Below are positions 8,988 through 18,582 of a stretch of DNA of 64,000 nt, in pieces. The DNA comes from Actinomyces lilanjuaniae (GTDB lineage Bacteria; Actinomycetota; Actinomycetes; Actinomycetales; Actinomycetaceae): assembly GCF_003606385.1 (NCBI RefSeq), contig NZ_CP032514.1:1054001-1118000 (forward strand), in the 5' to 3' direction. Below the pieces are notes generated by a model. That model did no database searches. It was not told where the DNA came from and was given only the letters and a program-made list of their open reading frames with translations. The first letter of the stretch is position 1; each line of letters opens with the position of its first letter. Both the position numbers and the translations under genes were made by a program.

Positions 8988-10621
8988 GCCGCCCGGAGAG
9001 CCTCCCAGGCACAGGGATGGCCAGCCGCCCCGGGCGCGCCACAGGTCTGGAGACCGAGCTGGCTGTGGTCTGCGCCCCGCTGCGCGGGGCGGTCGGGGCC
9101 AGGGCAGACGCGCCCACCGGGCGCACGGGTCCTGCTGAGTCGGCGGACTCCACTGGCTCCACAGGGCCAGCGGACCTTATGGGGGCGCAGGAGGCCGCCG
9201 CCTTCCTGCTGCGCCACCGCCCTGAGGGCTACCGCTCGGACAACCTCTTCCTGCCCAACGGGGGGCGGCTCTACCTCGACGTCGGCTCCCATCCGGAGTA
9301 CGCCACCGCGGAGTGCGCCACCGTGCGCGACCTGGTGGCCCAGGACCAGGCCGGGCGCGCGCTCCTGGCCGCCATGGCGCGGCGGGCCACCACCACCTTG
9401 TCGCGCCGCGGCACGCCCGCACGCATCCACGTCCTGGCCAACAACACGGACTCCGCCGGGCACACCTACGGCTGCCACGAGAACTACTCCGTGCCCCGCA
9501 GCCTGGACATTGAGGCTGTGATGCCGGTGCTCGCCTCCTTCCTGGCTACCCGGCCCGTCCTGGTGGGTACCGGGGTACCGCTGCCCGGGGGCGCGCCCGG
9601 CCAGGAGGGCCACGAGCTGCCGGGCCGGGACACCCGGGGGGACCAGGTGGACCTGCCGGAGGACGCCTGCTGGGGGCTGTCTCCGCGCGCCCCTCATCTG
9701 CGCGCCCTGGCCTCGGCGGACACCACCGGGCAGCGGGCCCTGGTCAACACCCGTGACCAGCCCCACGCCGACCGTAAGCGCCTGCGCCGCCTGCACGTGA
9801 CCTGCGCGGACACCACCATGGCCGAGCCCACGGCGGGCCTGCGCAGCGTGCTGACCCTCCTGCTCCTGGACGCCCTGGAGGCGGGGGAGGACTTCTCTGA
9901 CCTGGTCCTGGCCGATCCTCTGGCGGTGCTGGGCCGCCTGGGCACCAGTGCCTGGGGCGAGGCCGAGGCGCGCACCTGCCAGGGCCGCGAGCTCAGTGCC
10001 GTCGACGTCCAGGAGGCCTTCGCCGAGCGGCTGGCACGCCGTCTGGAGACCGAGGGCACTCCGCCCGCCCTGGAAGGGGCCGACCACCTGCTGCGTGACC
10101 TCGCCCCCAGGGTGGTTACCGCCCTGCGCACCCGTGACGCCAGCGGCATCGACACCGAGATCGACTGGGCGGTCAAGAGGCGGGTCATGCGGGCACATCG
10201 TGCGCGCCACCCTGATCTGGGCGGCAGGACCCTGGAGGTACTGCGCACCCGGGTGGACCTGGCCTACCACGACCTGGACGCCGACACCGGCCTGACCGCG
10301 CGGCTGCGCCAACAGGGTGGTCTGGCCAGTCTGTGCGACCCGGAGGAGACGGCCCGGGCCCGCACCCAGCCCCCGCCCACACGGGCCGCGCTGCGTGGGG
10401 AGTTTGTCCGGGCCTGCCTGGCCCGGGGGGCGGACTTCTCGGTGACCTGGGAGAGCCTGCGCCTGGACTCCCCGCCCACCACGCCAGTGGACCTGCCCGA
10501 CCCCCTGGCCAGCCAGGACGACGCCGCCCAGGCGCTGACCGAACGGGTGCGCAGCCTGAGCCGCCGCGAGATGCGCCTTATCGACCTGCCTGGCCGCTCA
10601 GGCCTGGGGGTGCCGGGCTGA
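8984..10621 (+). CDS. pafA: Pup--protein ligase PafA
   Basis: PafA, a carboxylate-amine ligase related to glutamine synthetase, phosphorylates the Pup C-terminal Glu with ATP and transfers it to a substrate lysine. Family motifs in the 545-residue product are GLETEL at the N-terminus, FLPNGGRLYLDVGSHPEYAT (containing the catalytic Asp/Glu site), NNTDSAGHTYGCHENY, NTRDQPHAD, RRLHV, and the late DTEIDWAVKRR and DLAYHD blocks. LYLDVGSHPEYAT and GLETE distinguish PafA from its paralogue Dop. The region between GLETE and the first conserved block carries an unusually long Ala/Gly/Ser/Thr-rich insert (about residues 35-65). It starts with GTG inside the pup stop codon, and its 3' end overlaps the convergent cbiX-like gene by 24 bp. 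Confidence 0.93.
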   Translation: MSRPESLPGTGMASRPGRATGLETELAVVCAPLRGAVGARADAPTGRTGPAESADSTGSTGPADLMGAQEAAAFLLRHRPEGYRSDNLFLPNGGRLYLDVGSHPEYATAECATVRDLVAQDQAGRALLAAMARRATTTLSRRGTPARIHVLANNTDSAGHTYGCHENYSVPRSLDIEAVMPVLASFLATRPVLVGTGVPLPGGAPGQEGHELPGRDTRGDQVDLPEDACWGLSPRAPHLRALASADTTGQRALVNTRDQPHADRKRLRRLHVTCADTTMAEPTAGLRSVLTLLLLDALEAGEDFSDLVLADPLAVLGRLGTSAWGEAEARTCQGRELSAVDVQEAFAERLARRLETEGTPPALEGADHLLRDLAPRVVTALRTRDASGIDTEIDWAVKRRVMRAHRARHPDLGGRTLEVLRTRVDLAYHDLDADTGLTARLRQQGGLASLCDPEETARARTQPPPTRAALRGEFVRACLARGADFSVTWESLRLDSPPTTPVDLPDPLASQDDAAQALTERVRSLSRREMRLIDLPGRSGLGVPG

Positions 10622-11401
10622 CAGACCTGCCAGAGCTGGCAGGACGGACGGGTAGAGCGGGAGAGATGGCGTTGTGCCTGGCTGCTGGCGGTCCACGGCC
10701 TGGAGGTAGCGGCGCGCCACCAGTTCCGCCAGGCCCGGGTGCCCTCCCACAGGATCAGCCACGATGTCGGCCCCTGTGGTGCCCAGCGCCTGGTGGAAGC
10801 GCCCCTGGGCCAGCAGGTAGGTGGCGACGCCCACCCGGGCGGCCCCGCGCCGTCGGGCGGAGCGGACCGCCTGGGCCACGCTGGGTCCCGACGCGGACAG
10901 GTAGGCCGTTGTCACCGGCAGGCCCAGGAGCTGAGACAACCTGGCTGAGACGGCCTCAACCTCAGCCAGTGCCGCGCGGTTGCGCGACCCTGCGGCGCCC
11001 AGGACGACGTGGTCCAGCGCCTCGGTCCCGCCCAGGTGCCGTGCCGCCTGGTCCAGCCTCTGGGCGACCACCGTGACCACCTGGCTGTCACTCCCCAGGT
11101 GGGCGGTCACCGTCCCCGAGCCGTGTCGGTGGACGGCAGCGGGGACGTCGTGGAGGACGTGGTAGCCCCGGGCCAGGAAGAACGGAAGAACCACAGGGCC
11201 GGTGAGCCCCTCCAGAGCCGCCTCGGGCCCGGGCTCCTGCAGGTCGACGTAGCCGGAGCGCACCTCGACCCGGGGCAGCGCCGTGCGGACCTGCTGCACG
11301 GTGCGGGCCAGCGGTGGGTAGCGTGCGGGGCGCCTCGACCCGTGGGCCAGCAGGACCAGGGGCGGCTGGCTTCCACGCGCCGCGCGGCTGGTGCTGCTCA
11401 T
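10598..11401 (-). CDS. CbiX/SirB-type sirohydrochlorin chelatase-like protein
   Basis: This 267-residue protein has two CbiX repeats. The first begins LVLLAHGSRRPAR, with the metal-site His in AHGSR, and contains VVLPFFLARGYHVLHDVP with the second conserved His. The second begins DHVVLGAAGSRNRAA. Relatives insert Fe2+ or Co2+ into sirohydrochlorin. As the last gene of the sulfate assimilation operon, next to cobA, its likely role is ferrochelation to make the sirohaem needed by the sulfite reductase at the operon's front. Its start overlaps the stop of the tauE-like gene (ATGA), so translation is probably coupled. It is convergent with pafA. Confidence 0.85.
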   Translation of the reverse strand: MSSTSRAARGSQPPLVLLAHGSRRPARYPPLARTVQQVRTALPRVEVRSGYVDLQEPGPEAALEGLTGPVVLPFFLARGYHVLHDVPAAVHRHGSGTVTAHLGSDSQVVTVVAQRLDQAARHLGGTEALDHVVLGAAGSRNRAALAEVEAVSARLSQLLGLPVTTAYLSASGPSVAQAVRSARRRGAARVGVATYLLAQGRFHQALGTTGADIVADPVGGHPGLAELVARRYLQAVDRQQPGTTPSLPLYPSVLPALAGLSARHPQA

Positions 11402-12318
11402 ACGCCGGCCTCCTGTCGCTGGGGGCGGCGGGACAGGCTCGTGGTCGCCCGGCCTGTCTGCCTGGTGTGGGAGCGGCTGACAGCCACAGACAGCAGGACC
11501 AGCCAGGTGGGTACCAGCAGCGTGTAGGTGATGGCGTAGGCCTGTGCTGAGGCCTCAGCCCAGGCCAGCAGGGTACGCAGGTTCGTGGCCACAATGAGGC
11601 CGCCCACCGCGGCGCCCAGGACGCCCGTGGGCAGCCTGGCCACCAGCCAGGCCGCCACCGGCGCGGCCACCAGCCCGCCTGCCAGCAGTGCCGCCACCAC
11701 GCCAGGACGGATACCGGTGCCGCCCAGCCCGGCGAGGAAGCCGAGGGAGGCCGCTACGGTGACGAGGAACTCCGAGGCGCTGACCGAGCCCACCACCGTG
11801 CGGGGGGCCGTCCTGCCCGAGGACATGAGAGCGGTGGTGACTACCGGTCCCCAGCCGCCGCCCCCGGTGGCGTCCAAGAACCCGCCTACGACTCCTAGCG
11901 GCGCCAGGAAGCGGGTTCGGTGCGGGCACGTGCGTGTCCCGCCCTGCCGCGCAGGACGCAGTGTGAAGCGTGCCAGCACGTAGACCCCCAGGACGGCCAG
12001 GAGGGTGGCCGTGACCGGGGTGGCCGCCCGGACCGGCAGGCGGGACAGGATGCTCGCTCCCAGGAAGGCCCCCAGCGCCCCGGGCAGGCCCAGGCGGGCC
12101 ACCAGACGCATGTCGGTGTTGCCCAGGCCCCAGTGGGAGGCGCCGCCAGCCAGCGTGGTACCGATCTCAGCGAGGTGGACGCTGGCGGAGGCCGTGGCCG
12201 GGCTCAGCCCGGCCAGCAGGAGCAGGGAGGAGGATGTGAGCCCGTACCCCATTCCCAGGGTGCCGTCCACCAGCTGTGCGACCAGGCCGAAGACGGCCAG
12301 GAGGACAAGTGCGCGCAT
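11398..12318 (-). CDS. TauE/SafE-family sulfur-compound membrane transporter
   Basis: The 306-residue integral membrane protein has about eight hydrophobic segments. The first TM contains the family motif VAQLVDGTLGMGYGLTSS, and the second half repeats the fold with GGFLDATGGGGWGPVVT. TauE/SafE proteins move sulfite, sulfoacetate, taurine products or similar anions. Lying inside the assimilation operon, it may import sulfate/thiosulfate or export excess sulfite; the direction cannot be read from sequence. AAGGAG lies 8 nt before the ATG. The gene begins 13 nt after cobA and overlaps the next gene by 4 nt. No classical ABC or SulP sulfate transporter is present in this window. Confidence 0.85.
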   Translation of the reverse strand: MRALVLLAVFGLVAQLVDGTLGMGYGLTSSSLLLLAGLSPATASASVHLAEIGTTLAGGASHWGLGNTDMRLVARLGLPGALGAFLGASILSRLPVRAATPVTATLLAVLGVYVLARFTLRPARQGGTRTCPHRTRFLAPLGVVGGFLDATGGGGWGPVVTTALMSSGRTAPRTVVGSVSASEFLVTVAASLGFLAGLGGTGIRPGVVAALLAGGLVAAPVAAWLVARLPTGVLGAAVGGLIVATNLRTLLAWAEASAQAYAITYTLLVPTWLVLLSVAVSRSHTRQTGRATTSLSRRPQRQEAGV

Positions 12319-12331
12319 GGTGAGAGCTCCT

Positions 12332-13159
12332 TCAGTCAGCCGTGGGCCCAGCTGTGACCCGGTCCGCCCAGGCCGGGCTGACCGTGACGACGTCGCCGAT
12401 GACGATGACGGCCGGGGCGCTCACGCCAACCCTGGCTGCGACGTCGGGCAGGCACCGCAGCACCGTGGTGGTCACCCGCTGGTCAGGGTGGTAGCCGCGC
12501 TCGATGACGGCCACGGGTGTCGCCGGGTCGTGCCCGGTCTCAAGCAGCACCCCCACCGAGGCCTCCAGGTGGGTGACCCCCATGAGCAGGATGAGGGTGT
12601 GGTCCCGCCTGCGGGGCACCTCCCCGAGGTCGGCGTGGGCGGTGACCACGGTGAACCCGCGGGACAGGCCCCGGTGGGTGACCGGGATGCCCGCGGCTGC
12701 GGGCACGGCCACGGCGCTGGTCACCCCGGGTACGACCTCCACCGGCACACCTGAGCTGCGGCAGGCAGCCGCCTCCTCGCCCCCGCGTCCCAGGACGTAG
12801 GGGTCGCCACCCTTGAGCCGGACCACACGCTGGCCCCTCAGGGCGCGCTCCACCAGGACGGCGTCAATGTCGCGCTGGTCCATGGTGTGGCTGCCCCGTC
12901 GCTTGGAGGCGTCAATGATCTCTGCGCCGACCCCTGAGGCGCCGCCTGCCGGTCCCGGGAGGCCCTTGTCGAGCAGGGCACGGGGGGCCAGGGCGTCGGT
13001 GACCACGACGTCAGCCTGGGCGAGCAGCCGCTGGCCGCGGACCGTGATGAGGTCGGCGGCACCGGGCCCTCCGCCGATCAGTGCCACCCAGCCCTGGGAG
13101 CCAGGCCCGGTAGCCCGGTGGTGGGCAGGGAGTCTGGAGGTGTCCCGTACGGCGCTCAC
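12332..13159 (-). CDS. cobA: Uroporphyrinogen-III C-methyltransferase
   Basis: The enzyme transfers two methyl groups from SAM to uroporphyrinogen III, giving precorrin-2, the first committed step to sirohaem. The 275-residue protein shows the SUMT pattern: WVALIGGGPGAADLITVRG (SAM site), DALAPRALL, the VRLKGGDPYVLGRGGEE motif, GVPVEVVPGVTSA, and PVTHRGLSRGFTVVTAH. It has no N-terminal CysG dehydrogenase/ferrochelatase domain, so the oxidation step must be provided elsewhere, while the chelatase is probably the CbiX-like protein two genes downstream. The GTG start overlaps the cysN stop (GTGA), indicating coupled translation within the sulfur operon. Confidence 0.92.
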   Translation of the reverse strand: MSAVRDTSRLPAHHRATGPGSQGWVALIGGGPGAADLITVRGQRLLAQADVVVTDALAPRALLDKGLPGPAGGASGVGAEIIDASKRRGSHTMDQRDIDAVLVERALRGQRVVRLKGGDPYVLGRGGEEAAACRSSGVPVEVVPGVTSAVAVPAAAGIPVTHRGLSRGFTVVTAHADLGEVPRRRDHTLILLMGVTHLEASVGVLLETGHDPATPVAVIERGYHPDQRVTTTVLRCLPDVAARVGVSAPAVIVIGDVVTVSPAWADRVTAGPTAD

Positions 13160-14541
13160 GGCAGGACCATCCCAGCTTCCGGGGGCGCTGGGTCGGGCTG
13201 CGCGCCGTGGGGCAGACGGGCCATGCCCGCCGCCAGGGTCACCCCGTCCTGAGGGTCGATGAGGAGGAAGGCCCCGTCGCGGCGGGAGACGGAGTAGTCC
13301 TCCACCGGGACGGGGGAGGCCAGGCGCAGCCGGACGCGGCCAATGTCGTTGAGTACCAGGGAGGTGGTCGGTGTGGTGGTCAGGTCGTCGAGGTCGAGGC
13401 GTCCCTCGACCTCCTCCACGAGGGCCTGGACGGTCTGAGTACCGTGCCTGAGCAGCACCCGGGTGCGTGGCCGCAGCGGGTCCTCGCTCAGCCAGGCGAG
13501 GTCGGCCTGAAGCCTGCGTACAGGCTGGGGCGGCATGCTGGCGCAGGCCAGGGTGTCCCCGCGGGCGAGGTCGATGTCGTCGGCCAGGCGTATCGTCACC
13601 GACTGCCCGGCTGAGGCCTCGCCCAGTCGGGTGTCGGCCAGGTCGATGCTGGCAACGGTGGAGCGCCTGCCACTGGGCAGCGCTACCACCTCCTCGCCCA
13701 CCCGCACACGGCCGGAGGAGACCTGGCCCGCGTAGCCGCGGTAGTCACGCAGCTCCTCGCTGGGGGCCGCGGTCTGCGGGCGGATGACCATCTGGACCGG
13801 CATGCGGAAGGGCAGTCCTGCCTCCTCGCCCTGAGCGGGCAGGGTCTCCAGCAGGCCCAGGAGGGTGGGGCCTGTGTAGAAGGGGGTGCGCTGGGAGGCC
13901 TCCACCACGTTGTCCCCCAGCAGCGCGGAGGTGGGTAGTGTGCGTACCTGCCTGACTCCCAGCCCGGAGGCGACCTCGTGAACCTGGGTGTCGACCTCCT
14001 GGTAGGCCTGGGCGGAGAACCCCACTAGGTCGATCTTGTTGACCGCGACCACCACGTTGGGCACGCGCAGCAGCGCGGCCACCGCCAGGTGCCTGCGGGT
14101 CTGCTCCACCACGCCGTGGCGGGCGTCCACCAGCAGCACCACGACGTCGGCGGTGGAGGAGCCGGTGACCGTGTTGCGGGTGTACTGCACGTGACCGGGG
14201 CAGTCAGCCAGGATGAAGGAGCGCCGCGTGGTGGCGAAGTAGCGGTAGGCGACGTCAATGGTGATGCCCTGCTCGCGCTCGGCCCGCAAGCCGTCGGTGA
14301 GCAGAGCGAGGTCCGCGCTGGTCAGCCCCCTGTCGAGGCTGACCTGCTCGACGGCGGCCATCTGGTCGCGCAGCACCGACCTGGAGTCCAGGAGCAGGCG
14401 GCCCACGAGCGTGGACTTGCCGTCGTCGACGCTGCCGGCGGTGGCCAGGCGCAGCAGCCCGCCGACGGGTGAGTGCTGGGTCGGCTGGTCGGCTGGCGCC
14501 TGCGGCGGGGCCGACTGGGCTGGTTGGGCCAGGGTGTCCAT
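13156..14541 (-). CDS. cysN: Sulfate adenylyltransferase subunit 1 (GTPase)
   Basis: CysN hydrolyses GTP to drive the CysD reaction, sulfate + ATP to APS + PPi. The 461-residue EF-Tu-like protein has G1 AGSVDDGKST (near residue 36), switch elements around REQGITIDVAYRYF, G3 DCPGHVQYTRN, G4 NKID and G5 TSALLGDN, then two beta-barrel domains. There is no fused CysC (APS kinase) domain, in line with direct reduction of APS by the downstream-acting CysH. Its start codon shares one base with the cysD stop (TGATG), and its 3' end overlaps cobA by 4 nt. Confidence 0.94.
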   Translation of the reverse strand: MDTLAQPAQSAPPQAPADQPTQHSPVGGLLRLATAGSVDDGKSTLVGRLLLDSRSVLRDQMAAVEQVSLDRGLTSADLALLTDGLRAEREQGITIDVAYRYFATTRRSFILADCPGHVQYTRNTVTGSSTADVVVLLVDARHGVVEQTRRHLAVAALLRVPNVVVAVNKIDLVGFSAQAYQEVDTQVHEVASGLGVRQVRTLPTSALLGDNVVEASQRTPFYTGPTLLGLLETLPAQGEEAGLPFRMPVQMVIRPQTAAPSEELRDYRGYAGQVSSGRVRVGEEVVALPSGRRSTVASIDLADTRLGEASAGQSVTIRLADDIDLARGDTLACASMPPQPVRRLQADLAWLSEDPLRPRTRVLLRHGTQTVQALVEEVEGRLDLDDLTTTPTTSLVLNDIGRVRLRLASPVPVEDYSVSRRDGAFLLIDPQDGVTLAAGMARLPHGAQPDPAPPEAGMVLP

Positions 14542-15506
14542 CAGAAGTAGCCCTCCTTCTTGCGGTCCTCCATCGCGGCCTCGCTGAGGCGGTCGTCAGC
14601 ACGGGTGGCGCCCCGCTCGGTCACAGTGGAGGCGGCGACCTCGACGGCGACCTCGTGGTTGGTGGCGGCGCGGGACAGAACCGCGCCGGTGCAGGACATG
14701 TCGCCCACAGTGCGGTAGCGCACGGTGCGGGTGACCACCTCCTCCCCGTCCCGCGGCACGGTCACGGGAGACACAGCCACCCACATGCCGTCGCGGGAGA
14801 CGACCTCGCGCTCGTGGGCGTAGTAGAGGCTGGGCAGCCTGATGTCCTCACGCTCGATGTAGCGCCACACGTCCAGCTCGGTCCAGTTGCTCAGCGGGAA
14901 GACCCGCACGTGCTCACCCGGGCGGTGGCGGGTGTTGAACAGGTTCCACAGCTCGGGGCGCTGGTTACGCGGGTCCCACTGGCCGAACTCGTCACGCAGG
15001 GACACCACGCGCTCCTTGGCCCGCGCCCGGTCCTCGTCGCGTCTGCCGCCACCGAAGACCCCGTCGAACCCTCCGTCGGCGATGGCGTCCAGCAGGGGAA
15101 GGGTCTGGAGGGGGTTGCGGGTGCCGTCAGCCCGCTCGCGCAGGCGGCCGTCGTCGATGTAGTCCTGCACCCTGGCGACCACCAGCCGCAGCCCCAGCTC
15201 ACGGACAACAGCGTCACGATAGTCCAGGACCTCGGGAAAGTTGTGACCGGTGTCCACGTGCAGCACGGGGAAGGGGACGGGCGCTGGCCACAGGGCCTTG
15301 CGGGCCAGGTGGAGCAAGACCACGGAGTCCTTGCCGCCAGAGAACAGCAGCACGGGACGACGGCACTCGGCGACCACCTCCCGGATGACCAGGATCGCCT
15401 CGGCCTCCAGGGCCTCCAGGTGGTCCAGGTGCCCGCGTCCCGTGGGAGGGCCGCTCGGCTGCCTGACCGGGGCTGCTGTCTCACTCGATGTCGTGGTCGT
15501 ACTCAT
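14541..15506 (-). CDS. cysD: Sulfate adenylyltransferase subunit 2
   Basis: CysD is the catalytic ATP-pyrophosphatase subunit that adenylates sulfate. The PP-loop reads LLFSGGKDSVVLLHLA. Downstream are LHVDTGHNFPEVLDYRD, the GGRRDEDRARAKER motif, and FPLSNWTELDVWRYI, all diagnostic for the family, and the protein ends in EGYF as relatives do. I chose the ATG at 15506 because GGAG lies 4 nt upstream. An earlier in-frame ATG at 15566, preceded by AGGA, would add 20 Ser/Thr-rich residues and cannot be excluded. The gene lies about 40-100 nt after cysH and is directly followed by cysN. Confidence 0.93.
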   Translation of the reverse strand: MSTTTTSSETAAPVRQPSGPPTGRGHLDHLEALEAEAILVIREVVAECRRPVLLFSGGKDSVVLLHLARKALWPAPVPFPVLHVDTGHNFPEVLDYRDAVVRELGLRLVVARVQDYIDDGRLRERADGTRNPLQTLPLLDAIADGGFDGVFGGGRRDEDRARAKERVVSLRDEFGQWDPRNQRPELWNLFNTRHRPGEHVRVFPLSNWTELDVWRYIEREDIRLPSLYYAHEREVVSRDGMWVAVSPVTVPRDGEEVVTRTVRYRTVGDMSCTGAVLSRAATNHEVAVEVAASTVTERGATRADDRLSEAAMEDRKKEGYF

Positions 15507-15605
15507 CGTTCTCCGGCTCTCGTGGCTTGTGGATGCTGTGCTGGTCGCTGCGGCTGGTCCTGACATGGTTCCTGAGGTGCTGGTGCCATGCGCTGGGCTG
15601 CCTGC

Positions 15606-16421
15606 TCACAGGTGGATGCCGCACTCGGTCTTGCTGAAGCCGGCCCACCGCCCTGAGCGCGGGTCCTCACCGGGGGCGACCCGCCTGGTGCAGGTGGCGC
15701 ACCCGATGGAGGGGTAGCCGTCGTAGACCAGCGGGTTGACCAGGACCCCGTGCTCGGTTGCGTAGGACATCAGCTCCTCAAGGCTCCAGGGGGCCAGGGG
15801 GTTGATCTTGACCATCTGGTGGGTCTCGTCCCAGCCGACCAGGGGGGTCGCAGTACGGGTGGGCGCCTCCTCACGGCGCACGCCGGTGGCCCAGGCCTCG
15901 TACCCGCCCAGCGCCAGGTTCAGGGGCTCGACCTTGCGCAGCCGGCAGCAGGTGGCCGGGTCGCGCGCCCACAGGTCGGCACCCAGGCGCTCCTCCTGCT
16001 CGGCCACGCTCTCCTGGGGCACGACGTCCACCACGTTGACGTCCATGGTGGCCGCCACCGCGTCGCGGGTGCCGAGGGTCTCGGGGAAGTGGTAGCCGGT
16101 GTCCAGGAAGAGGACGTCGACGCCGGGCGCCTCCTGGGAGATGACGTGGGGGAGGACGGCGTCGGCCATGGAACAGGCCACGGCGAGGGTCCCGGGGAAG
16201 TTCTCCACCGCCCAGCGGGCCACGGCCTGCGCGGGGGCGTCGTGACCGAGCTCGCGGGCGCCGCGCTCGGCCAGCTCGCGCAGCTCGGTGACGGGGCGGC
16301 GTGGGCGGGTGGGCGGGGCCGAGGACTGAGGACCACGGGCGCCAGGTGCTGCTGCCGCCGGTCCGAGCTGTGCCCCCGGCGTCCCCGGTGACGTGGTGGA
16401 TGGTGTCGTTGCTGGTGTCAC
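15606..16421 (-). CDS. cysH: Adenylyl-sulfate reductase (4Fe-4S type CysH)
   Basis: This enzyme reduces APS to sulfite and AMP. The protein (about 271 residues) shows the substrate motif LFLDTGYHFPETLGTRD, the cysteine pair ATCCRLRKVEPL, a second pair IGCATCTRR, and the catalytic C-terminal ECGIH. The CC and CxxC pairs bind a [4Fe-4S] cluster and mark an APS rather than PAPS reductase, consistent with no APS kinase gene in the operon. The first ~45 residues are Ala/Pro/Thr-rich. The start is taken as the GTG at 16421, which overlaps the stop of the upstream reductase gene (GTGA); an ATG at 16454 is the alternative. Confidence 0.92.
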   Translation of the reverse strand: MTPATTPSTTSPGTPGAQLGPAAAAPGARGPQSSAPPTRPRRPVTELRELAERGARELGHDAPAQAVARWAVENFPGTLAVACSMADAVLPHVISQEAPGVDVLFLDTGYHFPETLGTRDAVAATMDVNVVDVVPQESVAEQEERLGADLWARDPATCCRLRKVEPLNLALGGYEAWATGVRREEAPTRTATPLVGWDETHQMVKINPLAPWSLEELMSYATEHGVLVNPLVYDGYPSIGCATCTRRVAPGEDPRSGRWAGFSKTECGIHL

Positions 16422-18160
16422 TGGAGCTCCTCCTGGTCTGCCCGGTGCGCCCACTGGGAGAAGGACTCCTCGTCCTCGCGCTGGGCGAGGTAGCGGCGCA
16501 CCAGACGCTCGATGTAGTCGGTCAGGTCGCTGGCGGGCACCTTGAGGCCCCGCACCGTGCGTCCCAGCCCCGCCTCGGGGCGCCCAGCCGTGGCCAGGCC
16601 ACCTCCCAGGTGCACCTGGAAGCCGGGGACCTGCTCGCCGTCGACAGTGATGATCTGCCCCTTGAGCCCGATGTCGGCGGTCTGGATGCGTACGCAGGAG
16701 TTGGGGCAGCCGTTGACGGTCAGCGTGATCCTGCGGTCCGGGCCGGCCTCGCCCAGGTCGGCCAGGCGCTGGTCGAGCTCGGCGGTGACGCGTTCGGCCA
16801 GCCTCTTGGTCTCCACGATGGCGAACTTGCAGAACTCCAGGCCGGTGCAGGCCATGGTGTGGCGCTGGAAGACACCCGGCTGCGCCTCCAGGCCCAGCTC
16901 GCGCAGTCCGCTGACGGCCTCAGGGACCCGCTCGGAGGGGACGTCGAGCAGGAGCAGGTTCTGGGAGGGCGTGGTGCGCACCCGGTCGCTGCCCAGCCGC
17001 CCGGCCAGGTCGGCCAGGCCCAGCAGGACGTCTCCGGACAGCCGTCCCACAGGTGGCTTGGCTCCCACCCAGAACAGGCCGTCCTTCTGCTCGTGGACAC
17101 CGATGTGGTCGCTGTCGCCTCGGGGTGGCTCGGGCGGTGGCCCGTCGGGCAGCGTCCGCCCCAGGTACTCCTCCTGGAGGACCTGACGGAAGCGCTGCGG
17201 CCCCCACTCGGCCATGAGGAACTTGAGCCGGGCCTTGTTGCGCAGTCGGCGGTAGCCGTAGTCGCGGAAGATCCTGATGACCCCGTGCCACACGTCCAGG
17301 GCGTCCTCCTGGCTGACGAAGGCTCCCAGGCGCTGGCCCAGGCGCGGGGCGGTGGACAGGGCGCCACCGACCCACAGGTCGTAGCCGGGGCCCAGCTCGG
17401 GGTGCCTGACTCCCACCAGGGCGATGTCGTTGATCTCGTGGAGCACGTCCAGGGTGGGGGAGCCGGTCAAGGCAGTCTTGAACTTGCGGGGCAGGTTGGC
17501 CAGCTCGGGGTCGCCCAGATAGGTGTCCCTGATGGCCTGGGCCACGGGGGTGGGGTCGATGACCTCGTCCTTGGCGATACCGGCCACGGGGGAGACGAGG
17601 AAGCCGCGCGGCGTGTCCCCACAGCCCTCGATAGTGGTCAGGCCCACGGACTCCAGCCTCCGCCACATCTCGGGCACGCTGGCGATCTCGACCCAGTGGA
17701 GCTGGATGTTCTGCCGGTCGGTGAGGTCGGCGGTGCCGCGTGCGAAGTCGTTGGAGATCCCGCCTATGGTGCGCAGCTGCTCGCGGTTGAGGCTGCCTCC
17801 GTCCAGGCGGATGCGCTGAAGAAAGTAGTGGTCCTCCAGCTCGGAGATGTCGAGCTGGGCGGTGCGCCCGCCGTCGATCCCCTGTCGGCGCTGGGTGTAC
17901 AGGCCCCACCAGCGGAAGCGGCTATGGAGGTCGTCAGGGTCGATCGACTCGAAGCCGCCAGTGGCGTAGGTGGAGAGGATGCGCTCACGCACCTCCAGCG
18001 GGGGACCCTGCTGCTTGACGGCCTCGTTCTCGTTGAGCGGGGTGGTGCCGTCGACGGCCCACTGGCCGTTGGGACGGGCCTTGCGCGGAGGGCGTACCCT
18101 CTCCGCTGGCTGCGGGCGGGTGCCGGTACCGGTGGTACCGGGCCTGTCTGCGGTGCTCAT
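16418..18160 (-). CDS. sir: Ferredoxin-dependent sulfite (nitrite/sulfite) reductase
   Basis: This sirohaem/[4Fe-4S] enzyme performs the six-electron reduction of sulfite to sulfide. The 580-residue product has two ferredoxin-like repeats (first near RFRWWGLYTQRRQG). Cluster ligands lie in MACTGLEFCKFA and NGCPNSCVR, and the sirohaem region includes LTDRQNIQLHWVEI and GDTPRGF. The sequence alone does not separate sulfite from nitrite specificity, but gene order with cysH-cysD-cysN and sirohaem genes indicates sulfite. It is the first structural gene of the operon, preceded by a GGAG (GGAGAAGCC before the ATG) and, further upstream, by a cysteine-containing leader peptide that probably attenuates expression. 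Confidence 0.92.
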   Translation of the reverse strand: MSTADRPGTTGTGTRPQPAERVRPPRKARPNGQWAVDGTTPLNENEAVKQQGPPLEVRERILSTYATGGFESIDPDDLHSRFRWWGLYTQRRQGIDGGRTAQLDISELEDHYFLQRIRLDGGSLNREQLRTIGGISNDFARGTADLTDRQNIQLHWVEIASVPEMWRRLESVGLTTIEGCGDTPRGFLVSPVAGIAKDEVIDPTPVAQAIRDTYLGDPELANLPRKFKTALTGSPTLDVLHEINDIALVGVRHPELGPGYDLWVGGALSTAPRLGQRLGAFVSQEDALDVWHGVIRIFRDYGYRRLRNKARLKFLMAEWGPQRFRQVLQEEYLGRTLPDGPPPEPPRGDSDHIGVHEQKDGLFWVGAKPPVGRLSGDVLLGLADLAGRLGSDRVRTTPSQNLLLLDVPSERVPEAVSGLRELGLEAQPGVFQRHTMACTGLEFCKFAIVETKRLAERVTAELDQRLADLGEAGPDRRITLTVNGCPNSCVRIQTADIGLKGQIITVDGEQVPGFQVHLGGGLATAGRPEAGLGRTVRGLKVPASDLTDYIERLVRRYLAQREDEESFSQWAHRADQEELQ

Positions 18161-18349
18161 GGCTTCTCCAGGCTTCTCCGTGTGTGGGTGGGGAGCGTCC
18201 GGAGCAGTCGTCTGGGCACAGCTGGCAGTGCCGTCGAGAGCTGTCTGGGTGCTGGGGCCTCGTGAGAGCAGCAGGCCGCCCGGACGCGTCGTCGCGCCCG
18301 AGTCGTTGCTCAGCGTGGCAGGTGCCTCCCGCTGGGTCTCAGGCGCTGG

Positions 18350-18439
18350 TCAGGCCTGACAACACATGACCCAAGCATGGGCACGCCGGTCCACCGCGAG
18401 GCGGTGCCCGACGGTGCGCAGCGCGTGCTGGGAGGTCAT
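18350..18439 (-). CDS. Leader peptide ending in tandem cysteines, probable Cys-responsive attenuator of the sulfur operon
   Basis: A 29-codon reading frame runs MTSQHALRTVG... and ends VMCCQA-stop, with tandem TGT TGT codons three to four codons before the stop. It lies 189 nt upstream of sir on the same strand. The ATG is 7 nt downstream of a -10 hexamer TAGGAT, so the mRNA probably begins at or next to the start codon (leaderless). Family knowledge: sulfur-assimilation operons in actinobacteria (for example mycobacteria) carry short, often leaderless upstream frames with cysteine codons; ribosome stalling on them when charged tRNA-Cys is scarce switches on the downstream genes. I could not define alternative RNA hairpins by eye in the 189-nt spacer. 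Confidence 0.65.
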   Translation of the reverse strand: MTSQHALRTVGHRLAVDRRAHAWVMCCQA

Positions 18440-18446
18440 GACAGGG

Positions 18447-18476
18447 ATCCTAGGCACAGCGTCTTGCTGACGGCAA
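18447..18476 (-). promoter_or_regulatory. Promoter of the sulfate assimilation operon
   Basis: On the minus strand, TTGCCG (18476-18471) and TAGGAT (18452-18447) are separated by 18 bp, fitting the actinobacterial sigma-70-type consensus (TTGNNN and TANNNT). Seven nucleotides separate the -10 box from the ATG of the cysteine leader peptide. It is the only convincing promoter between the permease gene and sir. Confidence 0.6.
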
Positions 18477-18582
18477 GTGTGGTTAGCCTCATACGTGCGG
18501 TGGTACGGGCGCGCTCGCGGCTGCTAGCCAGCGCCGGGCGCGTGGCCGGGGGCGGGGCGCGGCCGGACCTGCTCCCTGTGGC

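Follow-up and report, generated by a model that had tools for sequence, protein, structure and literature searches.

What is the role of a short reading frame with two adjacent cysteine codons near its end, placed ahead of a sulfate assimilation operon in Actinomyces lilanjuaniae? The original prediction for this locus, which lies in a 64,000-nt stretch of DNA analyzed as a whole (the window), described a 29-codon leaderless cysteine leader peptide with a TAGGAT box 7 nt before its start, a TTGCCG hexamer 18 nt further upstream, and a gap of 189 nt between its stop and the ATG of sir (18160). All of these elements are located as claimed. The features of the upstream open reading frame (uORF) and of the operon are as follows.

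18471..18476, minus strand: −35-like hexamer TTGCCG (4/6 matches), with an 18-nt spacer to the −10
18447..18452, minus strand: −10 hexamer TAGGAT, 7 nt upstream of the uORF start codon
18350..18439, minus strand: uORF with leaderless-type start, 29 codons, MTSQHALRTVGHRLAVDRRAHAWVMCCQA and stop (ending VMCCQA), from the ATG at 18439 to the TGA that ends at 18350
18359..18364, minus strand: two Cys codons, TGT TGT, uORF codons 26–27
18163..18169, minus strand: sir Shine–Dalgarno (SD) sequence, GGAGAAG
16418..18160, minus strand: sir, nirA-type ferredoxin sulfite/nitrite reductase, under the cut-offs of all NCBIfam models matched
15606..16454, minus strand: cysH, above cut-off for one or more fitting NCBIfam models
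14541..15566, minus strand: cysD, above cut-off for one or more fitting NCBIfam models
13156..14541, minus strand: cysN, above cut-off for one or more fitting NCBIfam models
12332..13159, minus strand: probable uroporphyrinogen III methyltransferase (siroheme), from open frame and spacing, named by judging the sequence
11398..12318, minus strand: probable TauE/SafE-type permease, on the same basis
10598..11401, minus strand: probable CbiX-type chelatase, on the same basis

The genes sir, cysH, cysD, and cysN and the three further frames are closely spaced on one strand (minus). The top-scoring NCBIfam models for sir are those of nitrite/sulfite reductase, all at scores below cut-off, and its best named matches are from Actinomyces, e.g., A. 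johnsonii, A. oris, and A. naeslundii (80–84% identity). A promoter consensus scan returned no promoter at threshold; by hand count, TTGCCG/TAGGAT has 8 of 12 matches, where 9 were required.

The uORF was followed through 49 Actinomyces genomes, 28 of which carry a full sir. A frame ending MCC[QR]A stands before this sulfur gene in 28/28, and a search for ATG or GTG followed by AC, with TANNNT 4–9 nt upstream, gives exactly one start per genome. The frame is present as well in 11 named Actinomyces loci (L031–L041), mostly repeats of the same species. Alignment gaps within the uORF are all multiples of three, unlike those in the leader downstream of it. TGT encodes the second Cys in all 28 leaders and the first in 23; in the host, this codon is scarce (3/41 Cys codons in 12 genes of the window). 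The second TGT is the only one of the two that falls in an RNA helix, the first lying outside any helix. Frame, Cys-Cys pair, start position, and −10 spacing are thus conserved in 28/28 genomes, and the uORF is more than a chance frame. This conservation, which had been put forward as a check on the leader, supports it well, with no loss of the Cys codons or of the frame in any of these relatives.

Within three clades the pN/pS of the uORF is 0.32, 0.31, and 0.51 (N-terminal part: 0.46, 0.53, and 1.11), and between clades it is 1.20 (the shifted-frame control gave 0 usable pairs). By this pattern, the start, frame, and C-terminal codons are kept, but not the body of the peptide. It is very improbable that the frame arose by chance or encodes a small functional protein instead of a leader: its shortness and the freedom of its N-terminal half to diverge between clades would suit such an origin, yet the conservation in 28/28, with Cys codons and −10 spacing held, speaks against it, and a working protein is disfavored because what persists between clades is mainly the start together with the C-terminal codons.

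Because of the promoter-to-AUG spacing, the uORF would be translated in leaderless fashion, and its start fits that reading. The distance from TANNNT to the start is 7 nt in 26 of the 28 leaders and 6 nt in the other two, both of which have GTG starts; in these loci TANNNT occupies 0.25% of the positions upstream (26/10,335), and the hexamer at the conserved −10 place takes 14 distinct forms. The −35 is less conserved, with at least 4/6 matches (best of four spacings) in 12/28 leaders versus 11% at control positions. An SD-like 4-mer precedes the uORF in one leader, that of the window itself, where it overlaps TAGGAT. A strict leaderless Cys-Cys pattern searched in the host genome had no copy besides the sir leader. 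Inside the uORF (codons 7–19, 18383–18421), a hairpin is possible in most of 13 folded sequences, with shifting registers and a mean z of −1.6 (positive in one of the 13).

Beyond what the original prediction had described, five conserved RNA segments run from the Cys codons down to the start of sir, with alternative pairings possible among them. In the window they are as follows.

18354..18361, minus strand: segment 1, UGUCAGGC, spanning the second Cys codon, Gln, and the start of Ala; pairs with segment 2
18339..18346, minus strand: segment 2, GCGCCUGA; partner of segment 1, or of segment 3 via GCGCC:GGCGC
18294..18301, minus strand: segment 3, UCGGGCGC; forms a hairpin with segment 4
18279..18287, minus strand: segment 4, GCGUCCGGG; partner of segment 3 or segment 5
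18193..18202, minus strand: segment 5, CCGGACGCUC; complementary to segment 4 and, through its terminal GCUC, to GAGC at the sir SD/start

Across the genus, segment 1 has the form UGUC[A/G]GGC over the second Cys codon, and its start lies 15 nt from that of segment 2 in 28/28. Segment 3 reads UCCGGCGC in the other 27 leaders and UCGGGCGC in that of the window; the recurrent form of segment 4 is GCGUCCGG, and segment 5 is CCGGACGCUC or a close variant, upstream of the sir SD. Segments 4 and 5 can form at least nine pairs in 28/28, and the GCUC:GAGC match at the sir SD/start occurs in 25/28 as judged from duplex strings (it is absent in L023, L024, and L026), using one of two GAGC sites, GGAGGAGC in L002–L013 and AUGAGC in most others. 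The pairings 1:2, 2:3, 3:4, 4:5, and 5:SD form a chain in which they are mutually exclusive. Conservation thus covers the segments and their complementarity as well as the frame, Cys codons, and promoter spacing.

The consensus fold (RNAalifold) contains helices 1:2 and 3:4 plus short three-pair helices, with its both-sided changes located in the variable hairpin between segments 2 and 3. In a model-fitted alignment of 25 distinct rows that includes one further copy (G018, described below), hairpins 1:2 and 3:4 are paired in 99.1% of 350 cells versus 22–52% in slid controls. Covariation is thin because the segments vary so little: the covariation score was attained by 8/500 shuffles and the number of further pair types by 180/500, and both double changes in helix 1:2 come from G018 alone, which also has one broken pair there. 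Clade-swap tests were not significant (0.09 for 4:5 and 0.22 for 5:SD). The hairpin of segments 3 and 4 was rejected as a stand-alone signature, with 107 matches in 49 genomes versus 151 for a reversed control.

It is fairly probable that the uORF and the RNA together form a ribosome-operated, cysteine-responsive attenuator of sir translation and of the operon. In the scheme that we infer, with respect to transcript start site, stalling, folding order, and control at sir translation, transcription would start at or next to the uORF AUG, leading to leaderless translation. With ample Cys-tRNA, the ribosome would read both Cys codons, reach the stop, and cover segment 2; hairpin 3:4 would then form, and the free segment 5 would pair with GAGC at the sir SD/start codon, keeping sir translation low. 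When Cys-tRNA is short, the ribosome would stall on a Cys codon, covering segment 1 and leaving segment 2 uncovered; segment 2 would take segment 3, and the freed segment 4 would take segment 5, so that the sir start would open.

An intrinsic terminator scan of 18130–18520 found none 3′ of the uORF, its sole candidate being a weak 5-pair stem inside the uORF. Because no intrinsic terminator lies between the uORF and sir in the window, the leader departs from a classical amino-acid transcription attenuator. Control could still be transcriptional if the stalled or terminating ribosome used the hairpins to set termination by Rho (or at a terminator lacking a U-tract) in the 189-nt leader. The length of this untranslated, GC-rich leader, the stability of hairpin 3:4, and the weak response of predicted SD accessibility (see below) are in keeping with such termination, but the only terminator-like site in the region is the weak stem within the uORF, and termination has no need of segment 5 and its match at the sir SD/start, yet both are conserved. 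We regard transcriptional control as unlikely.

The switch was modeled by equilibrium folding under masks that place a ribosome at the first Cys codon (Cys1), the second (Cys2), or the stop, with cover assumed to reach 14 nt from the A-site codon and a change counted if it exceeded two pairs. Because the spacing is 15 nt and the assumed cover 14 nt, a stall on either Cys codon would free segment 2, and a ribosome at the stop would cover it. Going from the stop mask to the Cys1 mask, 3:4 goes down in 11/28 leaders and up in none, 4:5 goes up in 8/28 and down in none, and 5:SD goes down in 7/28 and up in none; if segment 2 is kept from pairing, the gain in 4:5 in those eight leaders is lost again, back to its level under the stop mask. 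Against the relay, 4:5 does not rise by more than two pairs in 20/28 and 3:4 does not fall in 17/28. In the leader of the window itself, 4:5 pairing remains close to 0, and under the Cys2 mask there is partial formation of 2:3 alone. Mean openness of the SD and AUG is nearly flat (0.33 at Cys1, 0.32 at the stop, 0.31 unmasked), with Cys1 above stop in 9/28. Equilibrium folding thus supports the switch only partly. The five-segment relay is graded as likely and no higher, because most leaders, the window's included, do not complete the switch in these folds, openness of the SD/AUG is flat, and the clade-swap tests are non-significant.

A different use of the same elements would have the uORF deliver or withhold ribosomes, through re-initiation or occupancy of the leader, with the segments serving stability, a protein, or a ligand instead of a stall relay. 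The scarcity of compensating changes and the weak switch in most equilibrium folds agree with this, but segment 2 lies at an unvarying 15 nt from the Cys codon, and the distances from uORF to sir are 164–207 nt; re-initiation across such distances is unlikely. Also against it, Rfam gave no match at gathering score in the window; for 18140–18500, with E up to 10, the sole match was to a lncRNA, at 11 bits and on the opposite strand. Ribosome delivery of this kind seems improbable, more so than transcriptional control.

To follow the RNA beyond these leaders, a covariance model of segments 1–4 was built from 24 distinct sequences of the 28 leaders, whose own matches are therefore built in. Searched against 213 genomes of the family, the model found one further copy, in G018, a genome without sir; the other 184 gave no match under stricter filters, with which weak copies may be lost. 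The G018 copy (L133:2440–2620) lies upstream of an amino-acid-type ABC ATPase gene, includes segment 5 and AUGAGC, and has two both-sided changes in helix 1:2; no clear leaderless start accompanies it. The solute-binding frame after this ABC ATPase looks cut short. In 396 genomes of the order, eight match: seven Actinomyces and G386. The G386 match was rejected, with helix 1:2 mostly missing and the site being an intergenic palindrome next to frames judged by eye to be transporter-like and LacI-like.

The peptide-coding part of the leader reaches further. A set of 158 further sir loci, taken without deduplication from named matches (nearly all titled actinobacteria, one Acidobacteria) and from relatives in the class, includes four loci with a short upstream stretch. 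Leaderless-type multi-Cys uORFs occur in 20 of the 158 loci versus 0.6 expected, and the same rule applied to nine less common amino acids finds 0 or 1 of 158; leaders of the RHVDL type occur in 59/158, counted by a loose motif without shuffle control. The sir leaders of Oerskovia, Cellulosimicrobium, Antribacter, Isoptericola, and others have an ATG 7 nt downstream of TANNNT, and their ends are rich in Cys. In the consensus fold of 13 leaders of the Oerskovia/Cellulosimicrobium type, the Cys tract pairs with a downstream GACUCAGC, and a long-range helix closes before the SD. These leaders differ from those of Actinomyces in having more Cys codons and other segment sequences. Alternating CUCAG/CUGAG and GGCGCGCG/CGCGCGUCC complements were read by eye in the sir leaders of L046–L108 (13 loci). 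One leader peptide (L050), from a record titled Sphaerisporangium cinnabarinum, is nearly identical to those of Cellulosimicrobium, and the title may be wrong. The suggestion that the Actinomyces leader is an independent version in another order was not borne out, as Cys-ending leaders precede sir in many other genomes (the 20/158, and the 59/158 by loose motif). Common descent is for this reason as likely as independent origin, a choice that peptides this short cannot decide.

Cysteine-rich uORFs before cysA2, nirA, and another gene, with attenuation as a speculation, were reported by Shell et al. 2015 (PMC4633059). Contiguous Cys codons attenuate translation (Canestrari et al. 2020, Mol Microbiol 114:93, as cited in excerpts of PMC9031893 and PMC13236596), and the polycysteine leaderless uORF attenuators of Mycobacterium smegmatis depend on cysteine supply and act on translation, according to excerpts of PMC9031893, PMC13236596, and PMC9094748. 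As excerpted there, these M. smegmatis uORFs share with the Actinomyces uORF Cys codons, a place upstream of cysteine genes, and probably their leaderless start, and the excerpted nirA/Msmeg_4527 case (PMC4633059) shares a Cys-rich uORF before a nirA/sir gene. The Cys tract near the end of the Actinomyces uORF differs from the M. smegmatis class in having only two adjacent codons, short for "poly," and the conserved five-segment RNA relay is an Actinomyces feature that goes unmentioned in the excerpted descriptions of that class.

Among NCBIfam leader models, NF042936 (leader_Ms4527A) reaches 33 bits (E 3e-8), short of its cut-off (45), for a RRHIDLGRVSSMSC-type leader from another genome, and NF042934 (cis_reg_atten, putative leader peptide) scores 32.9 (cut-off 27), and 24.4 and 24.1, just below, on three RHVDL-type sir leaders of other families. 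Leaders of the NF042934 type resemble those of Actinomyces in being short, Cys-ending, and placed before sir, and carry an RxHVDL motif that is absent from the Actinomyces peptides. The window peptide matched none of NF042936, NF042934, and NF042933 (E up to 1), four other Actinomyces peptides matched no leader model (E up to 10), and neither did the two Cellulosimicrobium/Oerskovia leaders tested. A search of open-licence literature gave, among the matches listed, no description of a cysteine leader from Actinomyces. The claim that the group had no earlier description therefore holds for the genus, within those matches; for the class of leader it does not, since the class has been described and NCBIfam models of related leaders exist. 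The sensor class is known from mycobacteria; the Actinomyces version and its RNA switch look new.

A second candidate sensor lies before cysK (1025756–1026646, outside the window), where, about 300 nt upstream, an SD-led 17-codon Cys-rich frame, MTLTVMCVMSLSCCQCL, is found (L234, G000:C1). A short Cys-rich frame precedes cysK in 29 of 30 loci examined (48 genus genomes have cysK; the count has no shuffle control), and in 26 aligned leaders of the 30 loci a conserved two-tier GC-rich hairpin begins at the uORF stop. Within this hairpin is GCGCC...GGCGC, the 5-bp match by which segments 2 and 3 can pair in the sir leader.

Tentatively, and with rather less confidence than in the attenuator itself, Actinomyces may be viewed as possessing a cysteine "ribulon" (a term said to come from Canestrari et al.) with two sensors: one, upstream of sir, would be a leaderless Cys-Cys uORF whose five-segment relay signals the state of the ribosome to the sir start, about 190 nt away; the other, upstream of cysK, would be a Cys-rich uORF led by an SD and accompanied by a conserved hairpin of its own. 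In this view the relay would be a portable module, a property suggested by the copy that precedes a transporter gene in G018, and similar wiring made of other sequences would have been reached in a second lineage of actinobacteria.

These results would extend the range of leaderless-type uORFs that sense cysteine beyond mycobacteria, to Actinomyces and lineages of the Oerskovia/Cellulosimicrobium type, and they provide RNA wiring that is concrete and conserved and for which the ribosome geometry is defined. If uORFs of the leaderless and the SD-led kind do serve one amino acid in one genus, the question becomes why both are kept; leaderless starts may, for instance, work under stresses that block SD-led initiation.
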